From Bradyrhizobium sp. AZCC 2176 (GTDB lineage: Bacteria > Pseudomonadota > Alphaproteobacteria > Rhizobiales > Xanthobacteraceae), in contig NZ_JAZHRX010000001.1 of assembly GCF_036924645.1 (NCBI RefSeq), positions 4,987,501 through 5,051,500 of the forward strand: DNA of 64,000 bases, read 5' to 3'. Below the pieces are notes generated by a model. The model had not been told where the DNA came from. It saw only the letters and a program-made list of their open reading frames with translations, and ran no database searches. Below are positions 37,586 through 63,074 of the stretch, in pieces. A program made the translations under genes and the position numbers. Position 1 is the first letter of the stretch. Each line of letters opens with the position of its first letter.

Positions 37586-37907
37586 GGCGTGTAGCTGAGA
37601 CGGTGTCGGATTGTCGGCGCTTCGGCCGGCTCTCCGACATCCCGAAGTGTCTGTCTGCAACGACAGATGGCTTTGGCAGGCGAACCGAATTCGCCAATCG
37701 TGACCGACGCGACGTATATGGCGATTTGTCGTTTTTTCGTTCGCCTTGTCCAAGAGCGAAGTGGCTTTGCCCAAGAGGGAAATTTCCGGCGTCAGATATG
37801 TCGGTATGCCTTCAATGCCGGAGCTTCCGTGCTTGCGCAAAGTTCGAGGTCAACCTAGTTTTGAGCCGGCACGAATGTCGTGCCAGCACTGCTTGGGAGA
37901 AACCCTG
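37586..37907. other. 322-bp gap before pqqA; holds only the repeat motif
   Basis: I see no gene in this gap. It contains the two 15-bp direct repeats at 37746-37781 described separately. Short frames crossing it have no start with a ribosome binding site and no recognisable content. Confidence 0.5.
37746..37781 (+). promoter_or_regulatory. Tandem 15-bp direct repeat, 21-bp period, upstream of pqqA
   Basis: TTGTCCAAGAGCGAA (37746-37760), 6 nt, TTGCCCAAGAGGGAA (37767-37781). The two units differ at two positions. The same pair, inverted, occurs upstream of xoxF at 58764-58799. A period of two helical turns suggests cooperative binding of a regulator on one face. The repeat lies 126 bp before the pqqA ATG. 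Confidence 0.6.
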
Positions 37908-37988
37908 ATGAGTTGGAAAACTCCGAAGATTGTGGAAGTGCCGGTGGGCATGGAAATCAACATGTACGCCTGCGCGGCGCGTCAATAG
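37908..37988 (+). CDS. pqqA: PqqA, precursor peptide of the PQQ cofactor
   Basis: A 26-residue peptide starting MSWKTPKIVEV with the conserved E-I-N-M-Y core. Glu16 and Tyr20 are the residues joined by PqqE to build pyrroloquinoline quinone. The length and the end C-A-A-R are typical. No pqqBCDE genes lie downstream; the next 230 bp contain nothing I can recognise. This is therefore an orphan copy that depends on a biosynthesis operon elsewhere. It stands at the head of the methanol region, where the cofactor of XoxF is needed. Confidence 0.93.
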   Translation: MSWKTPKIVEVPVGMEINMYACAARQ

Positions 37989-45445: not shown

Positions 45446-45577
45446 ATTTCGGCCTCCATCCCACCACGAAACGCTATCGGCAATCCCATGTTTCATCGTA
45501 GCTAGGTTTGCGTCGCAGCACAGGCGACGAGTCCGTTACGGGGATTATTCCTGTTGCACGCTCCAAATGACAAGCAT

Positions 45578-45601
45578 AGCATTTTGCTTGTCTGCGGCTT
45601 T
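45578..45601. repeat. Hairpin in the region 45446-45682 before xoxJ
   Basis: GACAAGC and GCTTGTC form a 7-bp inverted repeat with a 10-nt AT-rich loop, about 85 bp before xoxJ. It may be an operator or leader structure. The rest of this 237-bp gap between divergent genes shows no coding content. Confidence 0.3.
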
Positions 45602-45682
45602 CAACGGAACTTCGTTCGTTGGGGTTGCAGATATTTTTCCGACGTTGGCAACCATGGTGGGCCGGAAGTGCAGCAGCTTTCG

Positions 45683-46567
45683 ATGATATATGCCGGGCAG
45701 AAGCGCCGGCTGGCGATTGCAGCATTGGCGGTCCTCGCCGTATTCGTTGGGCGCGATGTCGCACGCGCGCAGATCAATGAAACCGGCGATTTGTCGATCG
45801 AGCTGGTCGATCCCAAGGTGTTGCGCGTCTGCGCCGACCCGCACAATCTGCCGTTCTCCAACGACAAGGGCGAGGGATTTGAGAACAAGCTCGCCGAGCT
45901 GCTCGCCGAGAAGCTGCACAAGAAGCTGGACTACATGTATTTTCCGCAGGCGACCGGCTTCGTCCGGATGACGCTGGGGGCCCATCGTTGCGACGTCATC
46001 ATGGGCTTCCCGCAAGGCGACGACTTGGTCCAGGGCACCAATCCCTACTACCGCACCGCCTATGCGCTGGTCGCCAAGCAGGGTAGCGGCCTCGAAGACG
46101 TTGCGGCGCTGGAAGACGAGCGGCTGAAAGGCAAGCATATCGGCATCGTGGCCGGCACGCCGCCTGCAACCAACATGGCGGTCAATGGCCTGATGGCGAA
46201 TGCCAGACCCTATCAGTTGATGGTCGATACGCGTATCGACTCGTCAGCGGAAGCCATGATCGGTGACCTGATGTCGGGTAAGATTGACGCCGGCATTCTG
46301 TGGGGACCGATGGCGGGCTTCCATGCCAAGAAGGCGAACCCGCCGCTTCACGTCACGCCCCTCGTGAAGGAAAAGACTGGCCCGCGTTTGGCGTTTCGCA
46401 TCGGCATGGGGGTACGGGGCGCCGACCAGAACTGGAAGCGGCTGCTCAACCGCCTGATCCAGGAGAACCAGCCCGCTATCAACAAGATACTGCTGGACTT
46501 CGGCGTTCCCTTGCTCGACGAGAACGACCGGCCGATCGGCGCGGAGACGGCAACGAAAGCGCCATGA
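45683..46567 (+). CDS. xoxJ: XoxJ-like periplasmic binding protein
   Basis: A 294-residue exported protein (N-terminal R-R-L-A-I-A-A-L-A-V-L-A-V-F helix, cleavage near ARA-QI). It is of the family-3 binding protein fold: L-R-V-C-A-D-P-H-N-L-P-F-S-N, G-F-E-N-K-L-A-E-L-L-A, D-V-I-M-G-F-P. Such proteins are encoded with XoxF and MxaF, and XoxJ/MxaJ are thought to help activate or fold the dehydrogenase rather than transport. ATG 45683 is chosen at the signal peptide. The stop overlaps the next gene (ATGA). Confidence 0.87.
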   Translation: MIYAGQKRRLAIAALAVLAVFVGRDVARAQINETGDLSIELVDPKVLRVCADPHNLPFSNDKGEGFENKLAELLAEKLHKKLDYMYFPQATGFVRMTLGAHRCDVIMGFPQGDDLVQGTNPYYRTAYALVAKQGSGLEDVAALEDERLKGKHIGIVAGTPPATNMAVNGLMANARPYQLMVDTRIDSSAEAMIGDLMSGKIDAGILWGPMAGFHAKKANPPLHVTPLVKEKTGPRLAFRIGMGVRGADQNWKRLLNRLIQENQPAINKILLDFGVPLLDENDRPIGAETATKAP

Positions 46568-52695: not shown

Positions 52696-53316
52696 TCACG
52701 CCACGCCGCTTTCTATTGCCAGCCGTACCAGTTCGGCGGAAGTTCGTACGCCGAGCTTCTGGCGCATGATCGACGACGTATTGGCAACGGTTTTATAGGA
52801 GGAATGAACCATCCACGCGATCTCGGAAAGGCTCTTGCCCGCGCTGAGCAGGCGCAGGATCTCCATCTCCCGCGAGGTGAGTTTGGAAAGCGGGCTGCGG
52901 GCGAATGCAGGCCCGGCGAACGCGATGCTTCTAGCGATCGCGGAAGGCAGATAGACCCCGCCTTTGCCGACCTCACGGATGGCCTCGACCAGATCCTGCG
53001 GATCTCCGGTCTTGGTGACATAGCCCTTGGCGCCGATTTCGATGGCGCGCGCGGCGAACACCGGATCGTCGTTCATGCTGAACATGATGATCCGAGCGGA
53101 AGCGGCACGTGCCAGAATGCGCCTCGCCAGCTCGAATCCCGACACGGTCGGCAGATTGATATCGATCACGCAGATGTCGGGGCGCTCAGCAACGAACGCA
53201 CGCTCGCCGCTTTCCGCGTCGGCGGCCTCCAGCAGCACGACCTCCGGCTCGTCGGCAAACACGGTACGGCAGCCCGAAGCAACGATGGGATGATCGTCGA
53301 CGATCAGAACACGCAT
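52696..53316 (-). CDS. NarL/LuxR-family response regulator
   Basis: A 206-residue response regulator. The receiver domain (residues 1-120) has acidic pocket D8/D9, phosphorylated Asp52 (V-I-D-I-N-L-P) and the K of V-T-K-T. The C-terminal LuxR helix-turn-helix (about 140-200) has L-T-S-R-E-M-E-I-L-R-L-L-S-A-G-K-S. It probably pairs with the divergent histidine kinase at 53502 and resembles regulators of methanol or alcohol oxidation. The 15-bp direct repeats at pqqA and xoxF are candidate targets. Confidence 0.9.
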   Translation of the reverse strand: MRVLIVDDHPIVASGCRTVFADEPEVVLLEAADAESGERAFVAERPDICVIDINLPTVSGFELARRILARAASARIIMFSMNDDPVFAARAIEIGAKGYVTKTGDPQDLVEAIREVGKGGVYLPSAIARSIAFAGPAFARSPLSKLTSREMEILRLLSAGKSLSEIAWMVHSSYKTVANTSSIMRQKLGVRTSAELVRLAIESGVA

Positions 53317-53501
53317 TACATGGATCCCCGATAGAAGCTTCGATTCCGTTGCTGCATCGCGTCAGGCTGCACTGGCGCCGGCGCGAGACCGGCCATGCAT
53401 CGCCCGCGAGATTGCTGTACGTTCAATCTGATCGTCGGTTTTTCGACTGTCAACGGTCCTCTCGACGGGGAACTGATTGCGACGCGATTGGGGCAGACGT
53501 C

Positions 53502-54854
53502 ATGTGGCAGAAATTATCGTTGCGTGGGCGGATCAACGTGCTGCTGGCGCTGGGCCTGACGCTCGGTCTGGCCATCAACATTGCGCGGCTGGTCGTGGAG
53601 GCGACGCCGCGCGTTCGAGCTGAAGACCAAAGCGTCATACGGCTGGCGCGCGAATTCGTGGAGACGATCGTTCCCGGCCTTAACGAGGCGCCGGACCCGG
53701 ATGCGCGGCTGAACCAGATTGTTCGCGATCTCAGCCGGCTCCGGCACGTCAGCATCACGCGGCAGGGCGATGCGGCCGCAGGCGAACGGCCCGGCAACGG
53801 CGATCACGAACGATCGCCGCCGGCCTGGTTCATCGCGCTCGTTCATCCGGAAACGACCGCCGTGAGCGTACCGATCACCATCCACGGAAAGCCGCAATCG
53901 CTCGTGATCACATCGCATCCGAACGATGAAATGGCCGAGATCTGGGATGGGATCGTCACCCAGCTTGCGATCGGCTCCGCCATCGCGATCGCCCTCTTTC
54001 TGGTGATGATGATGATGGTCGGCCGGGCGCTGGCGCCATTGCAGGCGCTTTCGCAGGCCATGGCCAACATCGAGACCGGGCACTATGATTCACGCGTCGA
54101 GCCCGGCGGCGCGCCCGAACTGGCGGCGCTCTGTACCAAGCTGAACCACCTTGCCGGCGCGCTAGGCGAGGCTGTCGAGGATAAGCGACGGCTCGCCGAA
54201 CGAACGGTCTCGCTGCAGGATCTGGAGCGCAAGGAGATTGCGCGCGAATTGCATGACGAGTTTGGGCCGTATCTCTTTACGCTGCGCGCCCACGCCGGTG
54301 CCCTGGCGCGGCTTTCGGAGGACGGACGCGCGCCCGGCGCGGATGCGTTGCGCAAGCATGCCGCCGCCATCATGGAGCAGATCAATGCGCTCCAGCAATT
54401 CAACCGCCGGATACTGGAAAAGCTGCGGCCTGTCGGGCTGGCGGAGCTCGGCCTTCGCGAGGCACTTGGCGTGCTCATGCGTTTGTGGCGTGAGTCCCGC
54501 CCCGACGTGACCATCGACGCGAACATTGCGTGCGCGCCGGAAGAGACCGGAGAAGTCACCGACCTGACGGTTTACCGTATCGTTCAGGAAGCCCTCACCA
54601 ACGCCTTCCGCCACGCCGATGCGACTTCCGTCAGCGTCACAGTCGAGCAGGCCGCAGGAGTGCATGGAAATCGTGGCTGCGCCCTGGTGCGGGTTAGCGA
54701 CAATGGCCGTGGTCTGGCGCCGGATCACAAGCACGGCTTCGGCCTGATCGGCATGCGCGAAAGAATACTGGCGCTGGGCGGTACGCTCAATGTCGTCTCC
54801 GGCAATGGGGGCGTCACGGTAGAGGCGGTCGTTCCCCACGGATCGAATCATTGA
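53502..54854 (+). CDS. Membrane sensor histidine kinase (HisKA_3 type)
   Basis: A 450-residue kinase. One membrane helix is near residues 13-33, a periplasmic domain of about 120 residues follows (resembling the LapD/MoxY type), and a second helix is near 150-175. A HAMP linker precedes the phospho-acceptor H251 in E-R-K-E-I-A-R-E-L-H-D-E-F-G. The C-terminal ATPase domain has N-A-F-R-H-A-D-A and V-S-D-N-G-R-G-L. Related kinases sense formaldehyde or methanol metabolism (FlhS, MoxY). ATG 53502 is chosen, and the upstream 51-codon extension is rejected. The regulator gene is divergent, not downstream as is usual. Confidence 0.9.
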   Translation: MWQKLSLRGRINVLLALGLTLGLAINIARLVVEATPRVRAEDQSVIRLAREFVETIVPGLNEAPDPDARLNQIVRDLSRLRHVSITRQGDAAAGERPGNGDHERSPPAWFIALVHPETTAVSVPITIHGKPQSLVITSHPNDEMAEIWDGIVTQLAIGSAIAIALFLVMMMMVGRALAPLQALSQAMANIETGHYDSRVEPGGAPELAALCTKLNHLAGALGEAVEDKRRLAERTVSLQDLERKEIARELHDEFGPYLFTLRAHAGALARLSEDGRAPGADALRKHAAAIMEQINALQQFNRRILEKLRPVGLAELGLREALGVLMRLWRESRPDVTIDANIACAPEETGEVTDLTVYRIVQEALTNAFRHADATSVSVTVEQAAGVHGNRGCALVRVSDNGRGLAPDHKHGFGLIGMRERILALGGTLNVVSGNGGVTVEAVVPHGSNH

Positions 54855-54870
54855 TGGGGCGAACCGCCGG

Positions 54871-54924
54871 TTCGGGAATTTGTCCCGGTCTCTTCGGGGA
54901 GGAATGCATTTCGGGAATCTGACC
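54871..54924 (+). promoter_or_regulatory. Two near-identical 15-bp direct repeats before the TonB receptor
   Basis: TTCGGGAATTTGTCC (54871-54885) and TTCGGGAATCTGACC (54910-54924) differ at two positions and start 39 bp apart, in the 134-bp gap before the receptor gene. A candidate operator for metal- or methanol-dependent control; the regulator is unknown. Confidence 0.4.
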
Positions 54925-54988
54925 TTTTGCGGCTAGCGCGCGTCGTTGCCTTCTCACTAGTATCGTCCACAGCTAACCGGCAGCGCCA

Positions 54989-57445
54989 ATGCAGCCGGAA
55001 TGTGGTGGGATGGGGCATATGGGCGTACGCTTCCTGTCGATCGGGACAATCTCGATATGCCTCGTTCCCGGGATTGACGGTGCCCAGGCCCAAACTGCGC
55101 CTGCAAGTAGCGAGGTCTTGCCGGCCATCGAGGTCGTCGCCCCGACCACAACCGCCAAGCCAGCCCGCAGCAGAGGGGCGTCTCAGGCCACCAGGAACCT
55201 GCGCAGGGTTTTTGTCTATCCGACCGCGCCCACGCCGACGGCCAGTTCGGGAATGGATGTCGACAAGGTGCCGGCGAGCATCAACGCGGTTGGGGCAGGG
55301 CAGATCGCGCGCACCGGATCGCTGAACATTGCGGATGCGCTGCAGCAGCAGGTGCCGGGCATCATCGTCAGCGACACGACCGGCAATCCGTTTCAGCCAG
55401 ACATCCAGTTTCGAGGCTTTACCGCATCTCCGGTCGCCGGTACGCCCCAAGGACTCGCGGTTTATCAGAACGGTGTGCGAATCAACGAAGCGTTCGGCGA
55501 TACCGTCAATTGGGACCTGATCCCGACGGCTGCGATCAGGTCGGTCACGGTCGTGACCAACAATCCCGCGTTCGGCCTTAATGCCTTGGGAGGCGCCGTC
55601 AATGTCCAGATGAAGGACGGATTCAACTATAAAGGCGCCGAAATCAACACGATGGGCGGCTCGTTCGGACGCATCCAGAGTTCGGCCCAGTATGGCAAGC
55701 AGATCGACAATTTTACCGTCTACGGCGCGCTGGAGGGAGTGCGTGACAACGGCCATCGCAATTTTTCGGAATCGGCGATCCGCCGGTTTTATGGCGATGT
55801 CGGCTACCGGACCGATAGCAGCGAATTTCACCTCAACGTGGGTGTTGCCAAGAACAATTTCGGCGCGGCAGCGACTGTACCGGTCGAACTGCTCCAGAAA
55901 TATTGGGGCGCTACCTATACGACGCCGCAGATCCACGACAACCGCGTTGCCTACGCCAATCTGACCGGAAAGGTGGAGGTGACGCCGACCTGGACGATCG
56001 AAGGTTCGGCGCGTGTTCGCGCCTTCCAGCAGAAAACGGTGGACGGCAACCCGACCGAGACGCAGCCATGTGTCGGCGATCCGACGCTGCTTTGCTTCAA
56101 CGAAGACGTCGCGCCGGGAGCGGCGGCGAACGGCCTCAACGGAATCCAGCTCGCAAATCCGTTCCCAGACACGGCAGTGCTGGGACAGATCGACCGGACA
56201 ACAACCCGTTCGACGACGACAGGGGCGACCCTGCAGGCTACCAACACCGACCAGCTGTTCGGACATAACAATCAGTTTATGGTCGGCACCAGCTTCGATT
56301 CCGGCGTCACCCGCTTCGGGGCGACCGCAGAATTGGGCACGATCGGGCCAAACTACGTGGTCACGGGCAGCGGCATATTCCTCGGCCCATCCGGCACACC
56401 GATCTCGATCGGCCCGGTCTCGCTTCGGGCCACCAATCGCTACACCGGGCTTTATGCACTCGACACGTTCGACGTGACGGACCGGTTTTCAATCTCGGGC
56501 GGCGGCCGGTTCAACTATGCAAGCATCAACCTTCAAGATCTGATCGGTACCGACCTCAACGGCAGTCATACGTTCAGCCGCTTCAATCCGATGATCGGCG
56601 GCACCTACAAGATTACGCCTGAACTCACCGCTTATGCTGGCTATTCCGAGGCAAATCGCGCGCCGACGCCGCTGGAACTCGCATGCGCCGACCCTGCACG
56701 GCCCTGTATCGTCGCGGCATTCCTGATTGCAGATCCGCCGCTGAAGCAGGTCGTATCGCGCACGGTTGAGGCGGGCTTCCGTGGCACCAAGGAGCTGAGT
56801 ATCGGAACGCTCGGATGGAAAGTCGGCGGGTTCCGCGCGACCAACGCCGATGACATTCTGGCGATTCCGAGTGAGTTGACCGGCTTTGGCTACTTCCAGA
56901 ACGTGGGTAGCACGCGGCGCCAGGGCATCGAGGCGCAGGTCAATCTGACGTCGAAGACGCTGCAACTCTATGCCAGCTATTCGCTCGTCGATGCGCGCTT
57001 CCTCGACGCCTTGCAACTCAACTCTCACAGTCCGTTCGCTGTCACCGGCAATATCCAGGTTCTGCCGGGAAATCGGATTCCGGCGATTCCCCGCGACCGC
57101 ATCAAGTTCGGCTTCGATTATGCGGTCACAGATGCTTTCAAGGTGGGCGGCGATGCGCTGTTCGTCGGCAGCCAGTATTTCGTTGGCGATGAATCCAACC
57201 AGGCACAGAGGCTGCCGTCCTACACGGTTTTCAACCTGCACGCCTCGTATCAGATCAACAAGACATTCCAGATCTACGGCCGCGTCGACAATATCCTCGA
57301 CAATCGCTATGCAACCTACGGGACGTTCTTCGATACCGGTGACGTGCCCAATTTCACCAACGGCGGCGTGGACTTTACGGATCCGCGCTCGGTCAGCCCG
57401 GCGCGGCCGCGCGCCTTCTATGCGGGGCTAAAGGCAACTTTCTAG
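54989..57445 (+). CDS. TonB-dependent receptor of the methanol/lanthanide cluster
   Basis: An 818-residue outer-membrane receptor. A signal sequence (cleavage near AQA-QT) is followed by a plug domain (about 90-210: I-A-D-A-L-Q-Q-Q-V-P-G-I, F-R-G-F-T-A-S-P, N-P-A-F-G-L-N-A-L-G-G-A-V-N-V). A 22-stranded barrel ends in an aromatic residue (G-L-K-A-T-F). Receptors beside XoxF and PQQ-ABC genes, such as LutH of Methylobacterium, take up lanthanide-chelate complexes, and the setting here supports the same function. In-frame ATGs at 55010 and 55019 are alternative starts. Confidence 0.85.
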   Translation: MQPECGGMGHMGVRFLSIGTISICLVPGIDGAQAQTAPASSEVLPAIEVVAPTTTAKPARSRGASQATRNLRRVFVYPTAPTPTASSGMDVDKVPASINAVGAGQIARTGSLNIADALQQQVPGIIVSDTTGNPFQPDIQFRGFTASPVAGTPQGLAVYQNGVRINEAFGDTVNWDLIPTAAIRSVTVVTNNPAFGLNALGGAVNVQMKDGFNYKGAEINTMGGSFGRIQSSAQYGKQIDNFTVYGALEGVRDNGHRNFSESAIRRFYGDVGYRTDSSEFHLNVGVAKNNFGAAATVPVELLQKYWGATYTTPQIHDNRVAYANLTGKVEVTPTWTIEGSARVRAFQQKTVDGNPTETQPCVGDPTLLCFNEDVAPGAAANGLNGIQLANPFPDTAVLGQIDRTTTRSTTTGATLQATNTDQLFGHNNQFMVGTSFDSGVTRFGATAELGTIGPNYVVTGSGIFLGPSGTPISIGPVSLRATNRYTGLYALDTFDVTDRFSISGGGRFNYASINLQDLIGTDLNGSHTFSRFNPMIGGTYKITPELTAYAGYSEANRAPTPLELACADPARPCIVAAFLIADPPLKQVVSRTVEAGFRGTKELSIGTLGWKVGGFRATNADDILAIPSELTGFGYFQNVGSTRRQGIEAQVNLTSKTLQLYASYSLVDARFLDALQLNSHSPFAVTGNIQVLPGNRIPAIPRDRIKFGFDYAVTDAFKVGGDALFVGSQYFVGDESNQAQRLPSYTVFNLHASYQINKTFQIYGRVDNILDNRYATYGTFFDTGDVPNFTNGGVDFTDPRSVSPARPRAFYAGLKATF

Positions 57446-57522: not shown

Positions 57523-58491
57523 TCAGGCAACATCCGGCGCCGGATCGGCGGCGTGCGCCTTGTGAATGGCGGAGGGCACGAACCCGAAATGCTTCCGGAA
57601 TACGCGGCTGAAGTGCGACGAGCTCGAAAAGCCCCACGAAAATGCAACGTCCGTGATTGTCTTGCCGTGCTGGGTTTCCAGTTCCTGCCGGCAGTGCAGC
57701 AGTCTCGCCCGCCAGATATAATCGCTGACCGTCATGCCCTTGTCGCTGAACAGCATGTGCAGATAGCGCTTGGTGCAGCCCAATGCCGCCGAGATCTGGT
57801 CGATGCACAGTTCCGGGTCGCGCAAATGCTCGCGAATGAATGCCTGTGCCCGGATGTACATCGCTTCGGGACCGACGCGATCGAACATCGTGTCGGCCTC
57901 TCGCAGCGGCAACAACAGCAGATCGATCAGCGAATCGGCGACGCCGATGGCGTTGTAGGGCGACAGCCTGTTCGCTTCATCAAACGCGGTGTGCACGAAG
58001 TCGTAGGCGATGCGGCCGGTGCCGTTACGCGCGGAGAGCTTGCACGGCAACATCTTCGCCGTACGGAACCCGCGTTCGTGAAGCAGTGCCTTGGGGACGA
58101 TCACGACCTCGTGCCGGGTTAACGAGGGGCTGACGATCGTGTGCGGACAGGAGACGTCATAGGCGAGGCAATCGCCGGGCATGATGTCGATGCGACGGCC
58201 GCTTTGTTCGAAATGCGAGATGCCGTAGGTCTGGAACAATATCTTGACGTAGGGGTGTTCGCTCAGTTTCGTGCCTGAGACCGTGTGCGCGATGCGATGC
58301 TGGCTTGCCTCGATCTGACACAGTTTGAGCTGCGAGACGGTGGTGTAATTTATCCGCCCCTCGAGCGAAGAACCTTCCAGCGGATCGACATCAAACTGGC
58401 CGCAGAGATCGGTCAGCGCATCTGACCAAGTTTGGATCTGCCTCTTCGGCGCCAACCCGGAAGTGCTGAGTGAACGAACTATATCAGACAT
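57523..58491 (-). CDS. AraC-family transcriptional regulator
   Basis: A 322-residue regulator with an N-terminal cupin-like domain (about 40-180: H-P-Y-V-K-I-L-F-Q-T-Y-G, M-P-G-D-C-L-A-Y-D) and a C-terminal double helix-turn-helix (about 220-315). The second includes I-T-D-V-A-F-S-W-G-F-S-S-S-S-H-F-S-R-V-F-R-K-H-F-G. It lies next to xoxF on the opposite strand and may control xoxF or the receptor gene. The effector is unknown. Confidence 0.9.
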   Translation of the reverse strand: MSDIVRSLSTSGLAPKRQIQTWSDALTDLCGQFDVDPLEGSSLEGRINYTTVSQLKLCQIEASQHRIAHTVSGTKLSEHPYVKILFQTYGISHFEQSGRRIDIMPGDCLAYDVSCPHTIVSPSLTRHEVVIVPKALLHERGFRTAKMLPCKLSARNGTGRIAYDFVHTAFDEANRLSPYNAIGVADSLIDLLLLPLREADTMFDRVGPEAMYIRAQAFIREHLRDPELCIDQISAALGCTKRYLHMLFSDKGMTVSDYIWRARLLHCRQELETQHGKTITDVAFSWGFSSSSHFSRVFRKHFGFVPSAIHKAHAADPAPDVA

Positions 58492-58763: not shown

Positions 58764-58799
58764 TTCGCTTTTGAGCAAACGCGGTTCGCTCTTGGGCAA
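58764..58799 (-). promoter_or_regulatory. Tandem 15-bp direct repeat, 21-bp period, upstream of xoxF
   Basis: TTCGCTTTTGAGCAA (58764-58778), 6 nt, TTCGCTCTTGGGCAA (58785-58799); the units differ at two positions. The reverse complement, TTGCCCAAGAGCGAA-N6-TTGCTCAAAAGCGAA, matches the pair upstream of pqqA (37746-37781) in sequence, spacing and period. It is 98 bp before the xoxF ATG. Confidence 0.65.
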
Positions 58800-58802
58800 G
58801 TT

Positions 58803-58820
58803 TCCCGTTTCCGAACGGGA
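58803..58820. promoter_or_regulatory. Inverted repeat in the xoxF leader region
   Basis: TCCCGTT (58803-58809), TCCG, AACGGGA (58814-58820): a perfect 7-bp stem directly after the direct repeats and 77 bp before the ATG. It could be a second operator or a leader hairpin. Confidence 0.4.
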
Positions 58821-58897
58821 TAGGAATAGGGACCAAGAATGGAAAATGGGCCGTCTCGGCGGAAACCCAAAACTCTTAAATCTGGGAGGAAACCACT

Positions 58898-60703
58898 ATG
58901 CGCAAGGTGCTATCCGCTGCCTGTCTCGGCGCCGTGGCGGCATTCGCCGCAGGCGTTGCGTACGCCAACGATGAACTGAACAAGATGGCGCAGAACCCGA
59001 AGGATTGGGTGATGCCGGCCGGCGATTACGCAAATACACGCTACTCGAAGCTGAACCAGATCACCGCAGCCAATGTCGGCAAACTACAGGTCGCCTGGAC
59101 TTTCTCGACCGGTGTGCTGCGCGGTCATGAAGGCGGGCCGCTCATCATCGGCAACATGATGTACGTCCATACGCCGTTCCCGAACAAGGTCTACGCTCTT
59201 GACCTTTCGCAAGAGAACAAGATCGTCTGGAAGTACGAGCCCAAGCAGGATCCGAACGTCATTCCGGTGATGTGCTGCGACACCGTCAACCGTGGCGTGG
59301 CCTATGGCGACGGCAAGATCTTCCTGCATCAGGCCGACACCACCTTGGTCGCGCTCGATGCCAAGACCGGGCAGGTGGCGTGGAGCACCAAGAACGGCGA
59401 TCCGGGCAAGGGCGCCACGGGTACCTCCGCGCCGCTCGTCGTCAAGGACAAGGTTCTGATCGGCATTTCCGGCGGCGAGTTTGGCGTGCAATGTCACGTC
59501 ACGGCCTACGACCTCAAGACCGGCAAGCAGGCCTGGCGCGCCTTCTCCGAAGGGCCGGACGATCAGATCATGGTTGATCCCGTCAGCACCACCGAACTCG
59601 GCAAGCCGGTCGGCAAGGATTCGAGCATCAAGACCTGGCAGGGCGATCAGTGGAAGATCGGCGGCGGCTGCACATGGGGCTGGATATCCTATGATCCCGC
59701 TCTGAATCTCATCTACTACGGCTCCGGTAACCCTTCGACCTGGAACCCGAAGCAGCGTCCCGGCGACAACAAGTGGTCGATGACCATCTGGGCGCGCAAT
59801 CCGGATACCGGCATGGCCAAGTGGGTCTATCAGATGACGCCTCACGATGAATGGGACTATGACGGCGTCAACGAAATGGTCCTCAGCGATCAGCAGGTCG
59901 GTGGCGCAGAGCGCAAGCTGTTGACTCATTTCGACCGCAACGGCTTGGCCTATACACTCGATCGTGCAACCGGCGAACTCCTGGTCGCCGAGAAGTACGA
60001 TCCGAAGGTCAACTGGACCACCGGCGTCGACATGAACAAGAGTTCGCCGACCTACGGCCGTCCCAAAGTGGTTGATCAATATTCGACCGAAAAGGGCGGC
60101 GAGGACAAGAATACCAAGGGTATCTGCCCGGCCGCGCTCGGCACCAAGGACGAACAACCGGCAGCCTACTCGCCGGACACCCAGTTGTTCTATGTGCCGA
60201 CCAACCACGTCTGCATGGATTACGAGCCTTTCAAGGTGAGCTACACCGCGGGTCAGCCCTATGTCGGCGCGACGCTCTCGATGTATCCGCCTCAGGGTGA
60301 GAGCCATATGGGCAACTTCATCGCTTGGGACGGCAAGACCGGCAAGATCGTCTGGTCGAACAAGGAGCAGTTCTCGGTGTGGTCGGGAGCGCTCGCGACG
60401 GCTGGCGGCGTGGTGTTCTACGGAACGCTCGAAGGCTATCTGAAGGCAGTCGATGCCAAGACCGGCAAGGAACTTTACAAGTTCAAGACCCCGTCGGGCA
60501 TCATCGGCAACGTCACGACCTATGAGCAGGGCGGCAGGCAGTATGTGGCCGTGCTGTCCGGTGTCGGCGGCTGGGCGGGTATCGGCCTGGCCGCAGGTCT
60601 GACCGATCCAACGGCGGGTCTCGGCGCGGTCGGTGGCTATGCCGCGCTGAGCAACTACACCGCGCTCGGCGGCACGCTCACGGTGTTCGCGCTGCCGCAA
60701 TAA
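58898..60703 (+). CDS. xoxF: XoxF, lanthanide-dependent methanol dehydrogenase
   Basis: A 601-residue periplasmic PQQ enzyme with a signal peptide (residues 1-23, cleavage near AYA-ND) and an eight-bladed propeller. The adjacent disulfide cysteines C126-C127 ([10 protein letters not shown]) contact PQQ. The active-site motif W-D-Y-D-G-V puts the catalytic Asp at 320 and an extra Asp at 322; this second Asp coordinates the lanthanide and separates XoxF from calcium-dependent MxaF, which has Ala there. It oxidises methanol to formaldehyde and passes electrons to XoxG. No mxaFI-type small subunit is encoded nearby. Confidence 0.97.
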
Positions 60704-60778: not shown

Positions 60779-61291
60779 TTGCGTACAATATGGTTGATTG
60801 TAGCCACTCTCTTGCTTGTGGCGCCGGGATCGGTTGCCTGCGCTGCGGACGATCCGACCGCCGTCAAGTCCGAGGATGGCAAGTATCTCGACAAGGAAGG
60901 CAACCCGACTTTCAAGGTCGCGGCCGACGGAACGGTCGATTGGTATACCTATTCCGGATATCGCCGCTATCACTCCGAATGCCATGTCTGCCACGGCCCT
61001 GACGGGATGGGATCGACCTACGCGCCGGCGCTACAGGAGTCGCTGAAGACGATGAGCTACGGCGATTTCCTCGGCGTGGTCGCGAGCGGCCGCAAGAACG
61101 TCAACACCGCGCAAGAGAGCGTCATGCCGGCATTCGGCGATAATCCGAATGTCGCCTGCTACATGGACGACCTCTACATCTATCTGCGTGCCCGCGCTTA
61201 TGATGCCGTCGGACGCGTGCGGCCCGCCAAGCGTGAAGACAAACCCGACGCCTACACTGAGGCAGAGAAGTCCTGCATGGGAGCCAAATGA
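60779..61291 (+). CDS. xoxG: XoxG, cytochrome c electron acceptor of XoxF
   Basis: A 170-residue exported class I cytochrome c (signal peptide cleaved near ACA-AD). The heme motif is C68-H-V-C71-H72, and the likely axial Met is M115 in E-S-V-M-P-A-F-G. The start codon is TTG at 60779, with GAGG upstream. The only nearby ATG (60771) is out of frame and leads to a stop after eight codons, and no in-frame ATG precedes the signal peptide. It takes electrons from reduced PQQ of XoxF to the terminal oxidase. Confidence 0.93.
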   Translation: MRTIWLIVATLLLVAPGSVACAADDPTAVKSEDGKYLDKEGNPTFKVAADGTVDWYTYSGYRRYHSECHVCHGPDGMGSTYAPALQESLKTMSYGDFLGVVASGRKNVNTAQESVMPAFGDNPNVACYMDDLYIYLRARAYDAVGRVRPAKREDKPDAYTEAEKSCMGAK

Positions 61292-61364
61292 TCACGCCGA
61301 ACATGCGAAGCGCGCGTCTCGGCAGGTTCGTGCAGCGACTTGAAAAGAAAATGTGGAGTTTAAG

Positions 61365-62471
61365 ATGAAGACCCGCGCTGCTGTCGCATTCGAGGCCAAA
61401 AAGCCTCTCGAAATCGTCGAGGTCGATCTTGATGGCCCAAAAGCCGGCGAGGTGCTCGTCGAGATAAAGGCGACCGGAATCTGCCACACCGACGCTTACA
61501 CGCTTGATGGATTTGACAGCGAAGGAATCTTTCCTTCGATTCTCGGTCATGAAGGTGCGGGCATCGTCCGCGAGGTCGGCCCGGGCGTCATCTCGGTAAA
61601 GGCAGGCGATCACGTGATTCCGCTCTACACGCCAGAGTGCCGCCAATGCAAAAGCTGCCTAAGCGGCAAGACCAATCTTTGCACTGCTATCCGCGCGACC
61701 CAGGGCAAGGGGCTGATGCCGGACGGCACCTCGCGCTTCAGCTATAAGGGCAAGCCGATCTTCCACTACATGGGCTGCTCGACCTTCTCGAACTTTACCG
61801 TGCTGCCGGAAATCGCAGTGGCAAAGATTCGCGAGGACGCGCCCTTTGACAAGAGTTGCTACATCGGTTGCGGGGTGACGACGGGCGTTGGCGCCGTGGT
61901 GAATACCGCCAAGGTGACACCGGGCGCCAACGTCGTCGTGTTCGGTCTCGGCGGCATCGGGCTCAACGTCATCCAGGGTGCGAAGATGGTTGGCGCCGAC
62001 AAGATCGTCGGCGTTGACATCAACGATTCCAAGGAGGATTGGGGCCGCCGTTTCGGCATGACCCATTTCGTCAATCCGACCAAGGTCAGCGACATCGTTC
62101 AGCATCTGGTCGGGCTTACCGACGGCGGCGCCGACTACACCTTCGACTGCACGGGCAACACCGGGGTGATGCGGCAGGCGCTCGAAGCGTGCCATCGCGG
62201 CTGGGGCGTCTCGGTCATTATCGGCGTCGCCGAGTCCGGCAAGGAAATCGCTACCCGGCCGTTCCAGCTCGTGACCGGCCGCGTCTGGAAGGGAACGGCA
62301 TTTGGCGGCGCGCGCGGCCGCACCGATGTGCCGAAAATCGTCGACTGGTACATGAACGGAAAGATCGAGATCGATCCGATGATCACACACGTCCTCAAGC
62401 TGGAGGAGATCAACCAGGGATTCGATCTCATGCACCAGGGCAAGTCGATCCGCTCGGTTGTCGTGTTCTGA
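61365..62471 (+). CDS. frmA: S-(hydroxymethyl)glutathione dehydrogenase (class III ADH)
   Basis: A 368-residue zinc-dependent alcohol dehydrogenase. Catalytic zinc ligands are C40 (T-G-I-C-H-T-D), H62-E63 (G-H-E-G-A-G) and the later C of I-G-C-G-V-T-T-G. Structural zinc cysteines are C92, C95, C98 and C106. The NAD motif is V-F-G-L-G-G-I-G. It oxidises the formaldehyde-glutathione adduct to S-formylglutathione, removing the product of XoxF. ATG 61365 has GGAG 7 nt upstream; the GTG at 61353 is less likely. Confidence 0.95.
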
Positions 62472-62504: not shown

Positions 62505-63074
62505 ATGACTGTTCATATTCACCCATCGATTGACAGCGGCGTAAAGAAGGGGACCGGCAGCTTCGCCGGCGGCACCCTTGTCTGCAAATGCACGGACAGG
62601 CCGGTCAAGGTCGCCATCAAGGGCGATGTCGCCCACAACCACGCCTGCGGCTGCACCAAATGCTGGAAGCCCGAAGGCGCAACCTTCTCCGTCGTGGCCG
62701 TCGTCCCGCGCGACAATGTGAAGGTGATCGAGAACGGCGACAAGCTGCAGATTGTCGACGCGGCGGCGGCGATCCAGCGCTATGCCTGCAAAGCCTGCGG
62801 CACGCATATGTACGGCCGGATCGAGAACACCGGGCATCCATTCTACGGGCTCGACTTCATCCATCCCGAGCTGTTCCAGGAGGGTGGATGGGCGGCACCG
62901 GGGTTTGCCGCGTTCGTATCGTCCGTACTGGAGTCTGGCGTCCAGCCGGGCGAGATGGATGGAATCAGGGCTAGGCTGAAGGAACTCGGGCTGGAACCCT
63001 ATGATTGCCTGTCACCGCCTTTGATGGATGCGATCTCGAGCCATGTGGCCAAGGCCAAGGCAAAAGCAGCTTGA
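62505..63074 (+). CDS. gfa: Gfa-like glutathione-formaldehyde protein
   Basis: A 189-residue cytoplasmic protein of the GFA/CENP-V fold. Zinc cysteines are visible in [15 protein letters not shown] and [12 protein letters not shown]. Paracoccus Gfa was described as speeding S-hydroxymethylglutathione formation, although its catalytic role has since been questioned. AGGAGG lies before the ATG, and the gene follows frmA by 33 bp, probably in one operon with xoxFG. Confidence 0.93.

Follow-up and report, generated by a model that had tools for sequence, protein, structure and literature searches.

In a 64-kb stretch of Bradyrhizobium DNA (the window, meaning the whole stretch that was analysed), we found two pairs of 15-bp direct repeats, one upstream of an orphan pqqA and the other between araC and xoxF, that probably form the operator of the AraC/XylS-type regulator encoded at 57523-58491, which would activate xoxF and the orphan pqqA together. 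The features concerned are:

37746..37781, + strand: operator pair before orphan pqqA, TTGTCCAAGAGCGAA-N6-TTGCCCAAGAGGGAA, 15-bp direct repeats
37908..37988, + strand: orphan pqqA, an extra PQQ precursor peptide gene (second copy), 26 aa, assigned from the sequence
57523..58491, - strand: AraC/XylS-type regulator, 322 aa, divergent from xoxF (Pfam AraC_binding_2 and HTH_18)
58764..58799, - strand: operator pair between araC and xoxF, TTGCCCAAGAGCGAA-N6-TTGCTCAAAAGCGAA
58898..60703, + strand: xoxF, PQQ-dependent methanol dehydrogenase (TIGR03075, above cut-off)

The XoxF label and the lanthanide dependence of the 58898..60703 product are assumed by us from knowledge of the family. The earlier note had described direct-repeat pairs before pqqA and xoxF, inverted relative to each other and with the same 6-nt spacer, and this description is confirmed by four exact matches to TTGYYCAARAGSGAA within the window (37746-37760 and 37767-37781 on the + strand, 58764-58778 and 58785-58799 on the - strand), with the correction that the xoxF pair, which reads TTCGCTTTTGAGCAA-N6-TTCGCTCTTGGGCAA towards xoxF, lies in the divergent araC-xoxF region. 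Base composition predicts 0.0008 exact 15-mers in the window and only 0.09 in the whole genome, so chance does not account for the exact pairs found at the two promoters. Single 15-mers with up to 3 mismatches are not significantly enriched in the window (15 matches vs 10.4 expected, a number reached or exceeded in 9/100 shuffles). The 36-mer pair with up to 3 mismatches has 3 copies in the 7,146,351-bp genome and its reversed control 0; the many random copies elsewhere that the earlier note had considered were looked for and not found. The remaining copy is:

C1:3981784-3981819 (L004:7785-7820): the genome's third pair, with 1 mismatch

It points at an unannotated 183-aa ORF, and on its opposite side are a flavin-reductase fragment and a GFA-domain gene (~760 nt off), with no clear C1 target. 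Across 48 distinct sites, 13 of the 15 positions of the half-site nearer xoxF carry 1.7-2.0 bits, position 9 carries 1.0 and position 12 carries 0.1; the outer half-site is weaker, and the middle of the half-site is conserved as well, two boxes one turn apart not being set off. No Rfam family matched above its gathering score in the region 37000-59500. Sites were scored with a matrix trained on 30 sites, many of them from genomes scored afterwards, at a cut-off of 20, the best score outside the sites being 8.8 (in 3-kb pieces of own sequence).

Conservation in related strains was also looked for, and the pairs are conserved. Among 64 araC loci given, 61 have xoxF divergent from araC, which gives 59 distinct regions from five genera; the three loci without a divergent xoxF are L112 (at a contig end), L143 and L144. 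The pair is present in 59/59 of these intergenic regions, always reading away from xoxF and towards araC, with a spacer of 6 nt in 38 and 7 nt in 21 of them. On the xoxF side it meets the following promoter:

58798..58826, + strand: predicted xoxF promoter, -35 AAGTTT (58798-58803), 17 nt, TAGGAA (58821-58826)

The predicted -35, whose position was set by the usual 17-nt spacing and not by the consensus, overlaps the operator by 2 nt. A TA lies exactly 21 nt beyond the pair in 56/59 regions and 19/22 sequence clusters, the next best offset reaching 18/59. The distances from the pair to the gene starts vary over the 59 regions, from 243 to 438 nt for araC and from 88 to 286 nt for xoxF.

The pqqA of the window is a stand-alone second copy, because the sole pqqB above the family cut-off in the genome sits elsewhere (C1:811860, 4.2 Mb away by coordinates) and is preceded by its own pqqA; pqqC, D and E were assigned beside it by reading the sequence. 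The scanned ORFs around the orphan gene include phosphonate genes, an amidase, transporter parts, pentapeptide repeats, and unmatched ORFs. Among the fetched loci, the operator pair is found in 63/86 distinct pqqA upstream regions, in a uniform orientation opposite to that at xoxF, these counts not being population frequencies because the loci were partly chosen by pattern match or nearness to araC. The pair was absent upstream of 17/80 stand-alone copies (BTAi1 included), where stand-alone means that the downstream sequence examined holds no pqqB (<700 nt in 3 cases), and upstream of the operon copy in 6/6 genomes examined, including that at C1:811860. The spacer of the pqqA sites is 6 nt in 57/63, 5 nt in 5/63 and 7 nt in 1/63. 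The coupling of cofactor precursor and apoenzyme synthesis proposed in the earlier note gains support from conservation and architecture, and its cofactor part applies only to the stand-alone extra pqqA. The start of the 26-codon gene is 126 nt from the end of the pair, and between them lies:

37833..37861, + strand: predicted pqqA promoter, TTGCGC (37833-37838), 17 nt, TAGTTT (37856-37861), 51 nt past the operator

The pattern TTGnnn-N17-TAnnT(T/C) recurs in 62/63 operator-bearing pqqA regions (L159 escaped the expression), and the distance from operator to predicted -35 is 49-53 nt in 57 regions, 40-41 nt in two and 31 nt in three. These steps of ~10 nt suggest helix phasing at pqqA, the five closer-spaced exceptions perhaps representing only about three events.

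Mapping operator and regulator across genomes, we found that the loose 36-mer pattern (<=3 mismatches) matches 118/146 genus genomes and its reversed control 26/146, so that single loose-pattern matches need reading. The AraC protein has a match at E<=1e-40 in 137/146 genus genomes, one of these matches (34% identity) being non-orthologous; of the 136 genomes that remain, 117 match the N6 pattern. The remaining 19 were rejected as counter-examples, since each of them, read individually, carries the two half-sites at xoxF, set 7 nt apart. Only one of the 10 genus genomes without an AraC ortholog matches, namely G035 (80% complete), which keeps the pqqA site. In the family sample, at <=1 mismatch, the operator is found in 29/32 genomes with araC vs 2/216 without it (reversed control 1/248), an association with a Fisher p of 4e-32 when genomes are counted as independent and relatedness is left uncorrected. 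As for the araC-bearing misses, G350 has a pair with a matrix score of 36.8, G279 has weaker pairs, and G249 has a 47% identical protein with degenerate half-sites. The operator is present at 79/80 named araC loci (the best 80 of 190). A search of 336 further genomes from the class (kinship is shown for 20 of them, none of the same family) with the AraC protein gave nothing at E<=1e-70. This co-occurrence partly reflects linkage, because araC and xoxF are neighbours.

No pair accompanies the xoxF copies that are not beside araC in G072, G015, G032, G077, G211 (two copies, one with just ~50% identity), G261 and G249. G261, which has no araC ortholog, retains a site at its orphan pqqA and none at its single close xoxF. 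The second xoxF of G025, which adjoins a response regulator and not araC, has a weaker site ~390 nt upstream, where three tandem variant half-sites are seen (L080:5233-5290). In G318, araC is in three pieces with a stop (L174 / L165), and the operator and xoxF are retained.

The xoxF cluster and the rest of the window contain several further genes that bear on the targets and on the choice of regulator:

45554..46567, + strand: xoxJ-like substrate-binding protein (TIGR03871, above cut-off)
52696..53316, - strand: LuxR-type response regulator (Pfam Response_reg and GerE)
53349..54854, + strand: MoxY-like sensor kinase adjoining the response regulator (Pfam HisKA_3, HATPase_c and HAMP; LapD_MoxY_N below cut-off, 22.5 vs 25)
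60779..61291, + strand: xoxG-like c-type cytochrome (TIGR03874, above cut-off)
61353..62471, + strand: S-(hydroxymethyl)glutathione dehydrogenase (TIGR02818, above cut-off)
62505..63074, + strand: S-(hydroxymethyl)glutathione synthase, gfa (TIGR02820, above cut-off)

In this genome, neither the window nor the genome pair search yielded an operator pair before the xoxJ-like gene. Relatives add other targets. In G208, a genome of another genus whose AraC is 63% identical (L144:1166-1296), the gene across the araC-linked operator is gfa (above the family cut-off, start 94 nt from the operator, TA at 21 nt), with no adjacent xoxF. In G279 (L143:2681-2716), a xoxJ-like gene (TIGR03871 above cut-off) lies opposite araC across the operator, which has CA instead of TA at 21 nt, and a second operator (L278:1041-1501), with TA at 21 nt, precedes a pqqA-xoxF tandem, araC being 3.4 kb off. 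In L250 (Bradyrhizobium sp. S69), araC is adjoined by neither xoxF nor operator. The site therefore tracks C1 genes and not araC as such.

The AraC protein has FeaR (NCBIfam NF007243) as its nearest named family, with a match over residues 16-309 that scores 166.7, below the cut-off of 199, so the protein is FeaR-like only and not a FeaR equivalog. Its predicted structure has a mean pLDDT of 83.3 and a pTM of 0.59, two of the five models lying above 80. The best full-length fold match of the model is the AraC-like activator CuxR (E 4.6e-14, 18% identity), in a loose superposition (TM-score 0.51 by query, rmsd 11.8). Further AraC-like regulators and AraC domains follow lower in the list, and chains of SoxS, MarA, Rob and AraC are among the matches to the DNA-binding half. 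For the inducer, we offer methanol, formaldehyde, a lanthanide or a methoxylated aromatic as guesses.

In the mechanism that we propose, an AraC dimer would bind head to tail, one subunit per 15-bp half-site, and the two helix-turn-helix motifs of each subunit would read the two ends of its half-site. At xoxF, the site (TTCGCTYTTGRGCAA twice towards xoxF) would touch the -35 and activate the xoxF unit in the class II manner of XylS at Pm, whereas at the orphan pqqA the same site, inverted and ~50 nt upstream of a better -35, would act at a distance (class I) and from one favoured side of the helix. Synthesis of the enzyme would in this way be tied to that of additional PQQ precursor peptide. 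For MarA/SoxS-type activators, sites at the -35 usually read forward and those farther upstream backward. That the AraC protein binds, that it activates instead of repressing, and the class I/II assignments are what we infer.

Four other explanations have to be weighed against this one. Because both candidate regulators are common, discordant genomes decide between them, and they make it quite improbable that the LuxR-type response regulator (52696-53316) with its MoxY-like kinase binds the repeats. This regulator does lie in the same cluster as xoxF, it is matched at E<=1e-50 in 140/146 genus genomes (a few by only a ~53% paralog), the second xoxF beside it in G025 has the weak site, and two-component systems are reported to regulate methanol dehydrogenase genes in other methylotrophs in the available parts of PMC5784242 and PMC12997753. 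However, G072 has the response regulator (83%), the kinase, the TonB receptor and xoxF, but neither an araC ortholog nor the site, whereas G030 (draft, 99% complete) and G069 (draft, 89% complete) have araC and sites at both genes without a response-regulator ortholog, G030 having a best match of only E 3.6e-68, as weak as paralogs, and G069 none. Moreover, in G015 and G077 the araC-linked xoxF copies carry the site and the second copies, beside the response regulator, do not. The response regulator was rejected as the binder, since the site can be missing where it is present (G072) and kept where it is absent (G030, G069). The single regulator suggested in the earlier note is supported by conservation and architecture, with these genomes favouring AraC over the response regulator. 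It is very improbable that the araC-side pair serves mainly araC autoregulation with xoxF as a bystander, even though the pair reads towards araC in every intergenic region and stands before araC without an adjacent xoxF in G208 and G279. In G222 (81% complete, no xoxF at E<=1e-100), a pair (L285:6275-6310) also lies ~60 nt ahead of where another AraC-type gene (28% identical) probably starts, 288 nt from its aligned part, possibly as part of another regulon sharing the same DNA code. Against autoregulation, the pair is locked to the -10 on the xoxF side by the TA at 21 nt (56/59) while its distance to the araC start varies (243-438 nt), the pairs of G208 and G279 face C1 genes, the araC of L250 is without an operator, and the pqqA sites are not located at araC.

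That the AraC-type protein binds but represses, or switches between repression and activation, is unlikely: a site touching the -35 could block polymerase, and sequence does not fix the sign of control, but AAGTTT is far from the -35 consensus, as an activator-dependent promoter would be, and a site ~50 nt upstream of the pqqA -35 would suit an activator better than a simple repressor. It is scarcely credible that the repeats are a mobile or RNA element with no part in regulation. The repeated sequence does occur in separate places, but it has just three copies in the genome, its promoter positions are fixed, 37000-59500 has no Rfam match above the gathering score, and its half-site is near-invariant across five genera.

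The form of the operator has parallels in known systems. The earlier note knew of no described operator of this form, but this is contradicted by XylS and MekR sites of the type 15-N6-15 and the N7 site of MtlR, which are already in the accessible part of PMC4514859. XylS sites are TGCA-N6-GGNTA-N6-TGCA-N6-GGNTA, 15-bp direct repeats with two boxes per half-site (excerpts of PMC4514859 and PMC5481539), MekR sites repeat CACC-N5-CTTCAA with an N6 spacer, and the MtlR operator is a repeat with an N7 spacer (both in the excerpt of PMC4514859). Within what these excerpts describe, XylS at Pm of the TOL plasmid resembles the present case in its 15-bp direct repeats and 6-nt spacer, and its site reportedly overlaps the polymerase site, as the present xoxF site touches the predicted -35. 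The half-site sequence and the targets differ, and the present system has a second target, at which the site is inverted and sits farther upstream. The first XylS subunit occupies the proximal repeat (excerpt of PMC5481539), and here the xoxF-proximal half-site is the better conserved one. MekR (N6) and MtlR (N7, as in the present N7 variants) have, in the same partial sources, the same form with other half-site sequences, the MtlR targets being mannitol genes, unlike the present C1 targets; the five pqqA sites with an N5 spacer are shorter than these XylS, MekR and MtlR examples (6-7 nt). A site that touches the -35, as AraC/XylS-type regulators have, is predicted at xoxF, while the pqqA site lies instead ~50 nt upstream. 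Judged by its sequence, the putative operator is of a known AraC/XylS form, with a different sequence and an unusual regulon. In the open-licence literature searched, we found no description of the present operator sequence and regulon, and no paper on the control of xoxF in rhizobia.

In B. japonicum, the two-component pair FlcS/FlcR acts on C1 genes. MxbDM/MxcQE, MxaY/MxaB, PedS2/PedR2 and AgmR regulate the same kind of enzyme but are, in the portions of the literature available, kinase and response-regulator systems, unlike which the co-occurring protein here is AraC-type and sits beside xoxF. In Methylobacterium aquaticum 22A, separate pqqA1A2 genes are up on methanol, according to the accessible part of PMC5784242. 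In two methylotrophs of other groups, lanthanides turn pqqA copies down and xoxF up (available text of PMC10848612), so that a coupling of pqqA and xoxF need not be general.

Tentatively, and with more doubt than confidence, we propose that lanthanide methanol dehydrogenase may, in Bradyrhizobium and its close kin, be switched mainly by an AraC-type one-component sensor and not by a two-component system. This sensor would govern a small C1 regulon (xoxF, and gfa or xoxJ in relatives) and raise PQQ supply through a spare pqqA instead of the pqq operon, matching peptide to apoenzyme, and its N-terminal domain would sense a C1 compound, a lanthanide or PQQ. As far as the partly available literature that we found goes, such enzymes are regulated, in other groups, by two-component systems. 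With a candidate regulator, two operators at exact predicted promoter positions and an orphan pqqA, the question becomes directly testable in Bradyrhizobium; these findings also suggest that PQQ enzymes may be controlled through the precursor peptide that a spare pqqA supplies. The operator can be used as a simple genome marker of the regulon.

The response regulator, kinase and TonB receptor (52696-57445) accompany a second xoxF in G015, G025 and G077 and the only xoxF in G072, and may constitute a module of their own. In G299 (L283:8313-8348), another pair, TTGTGCGAGAGGGAA-N6-TTGCACGAGAGCGAA, lies ~4.6 kb from a TonB receptor and kinase.
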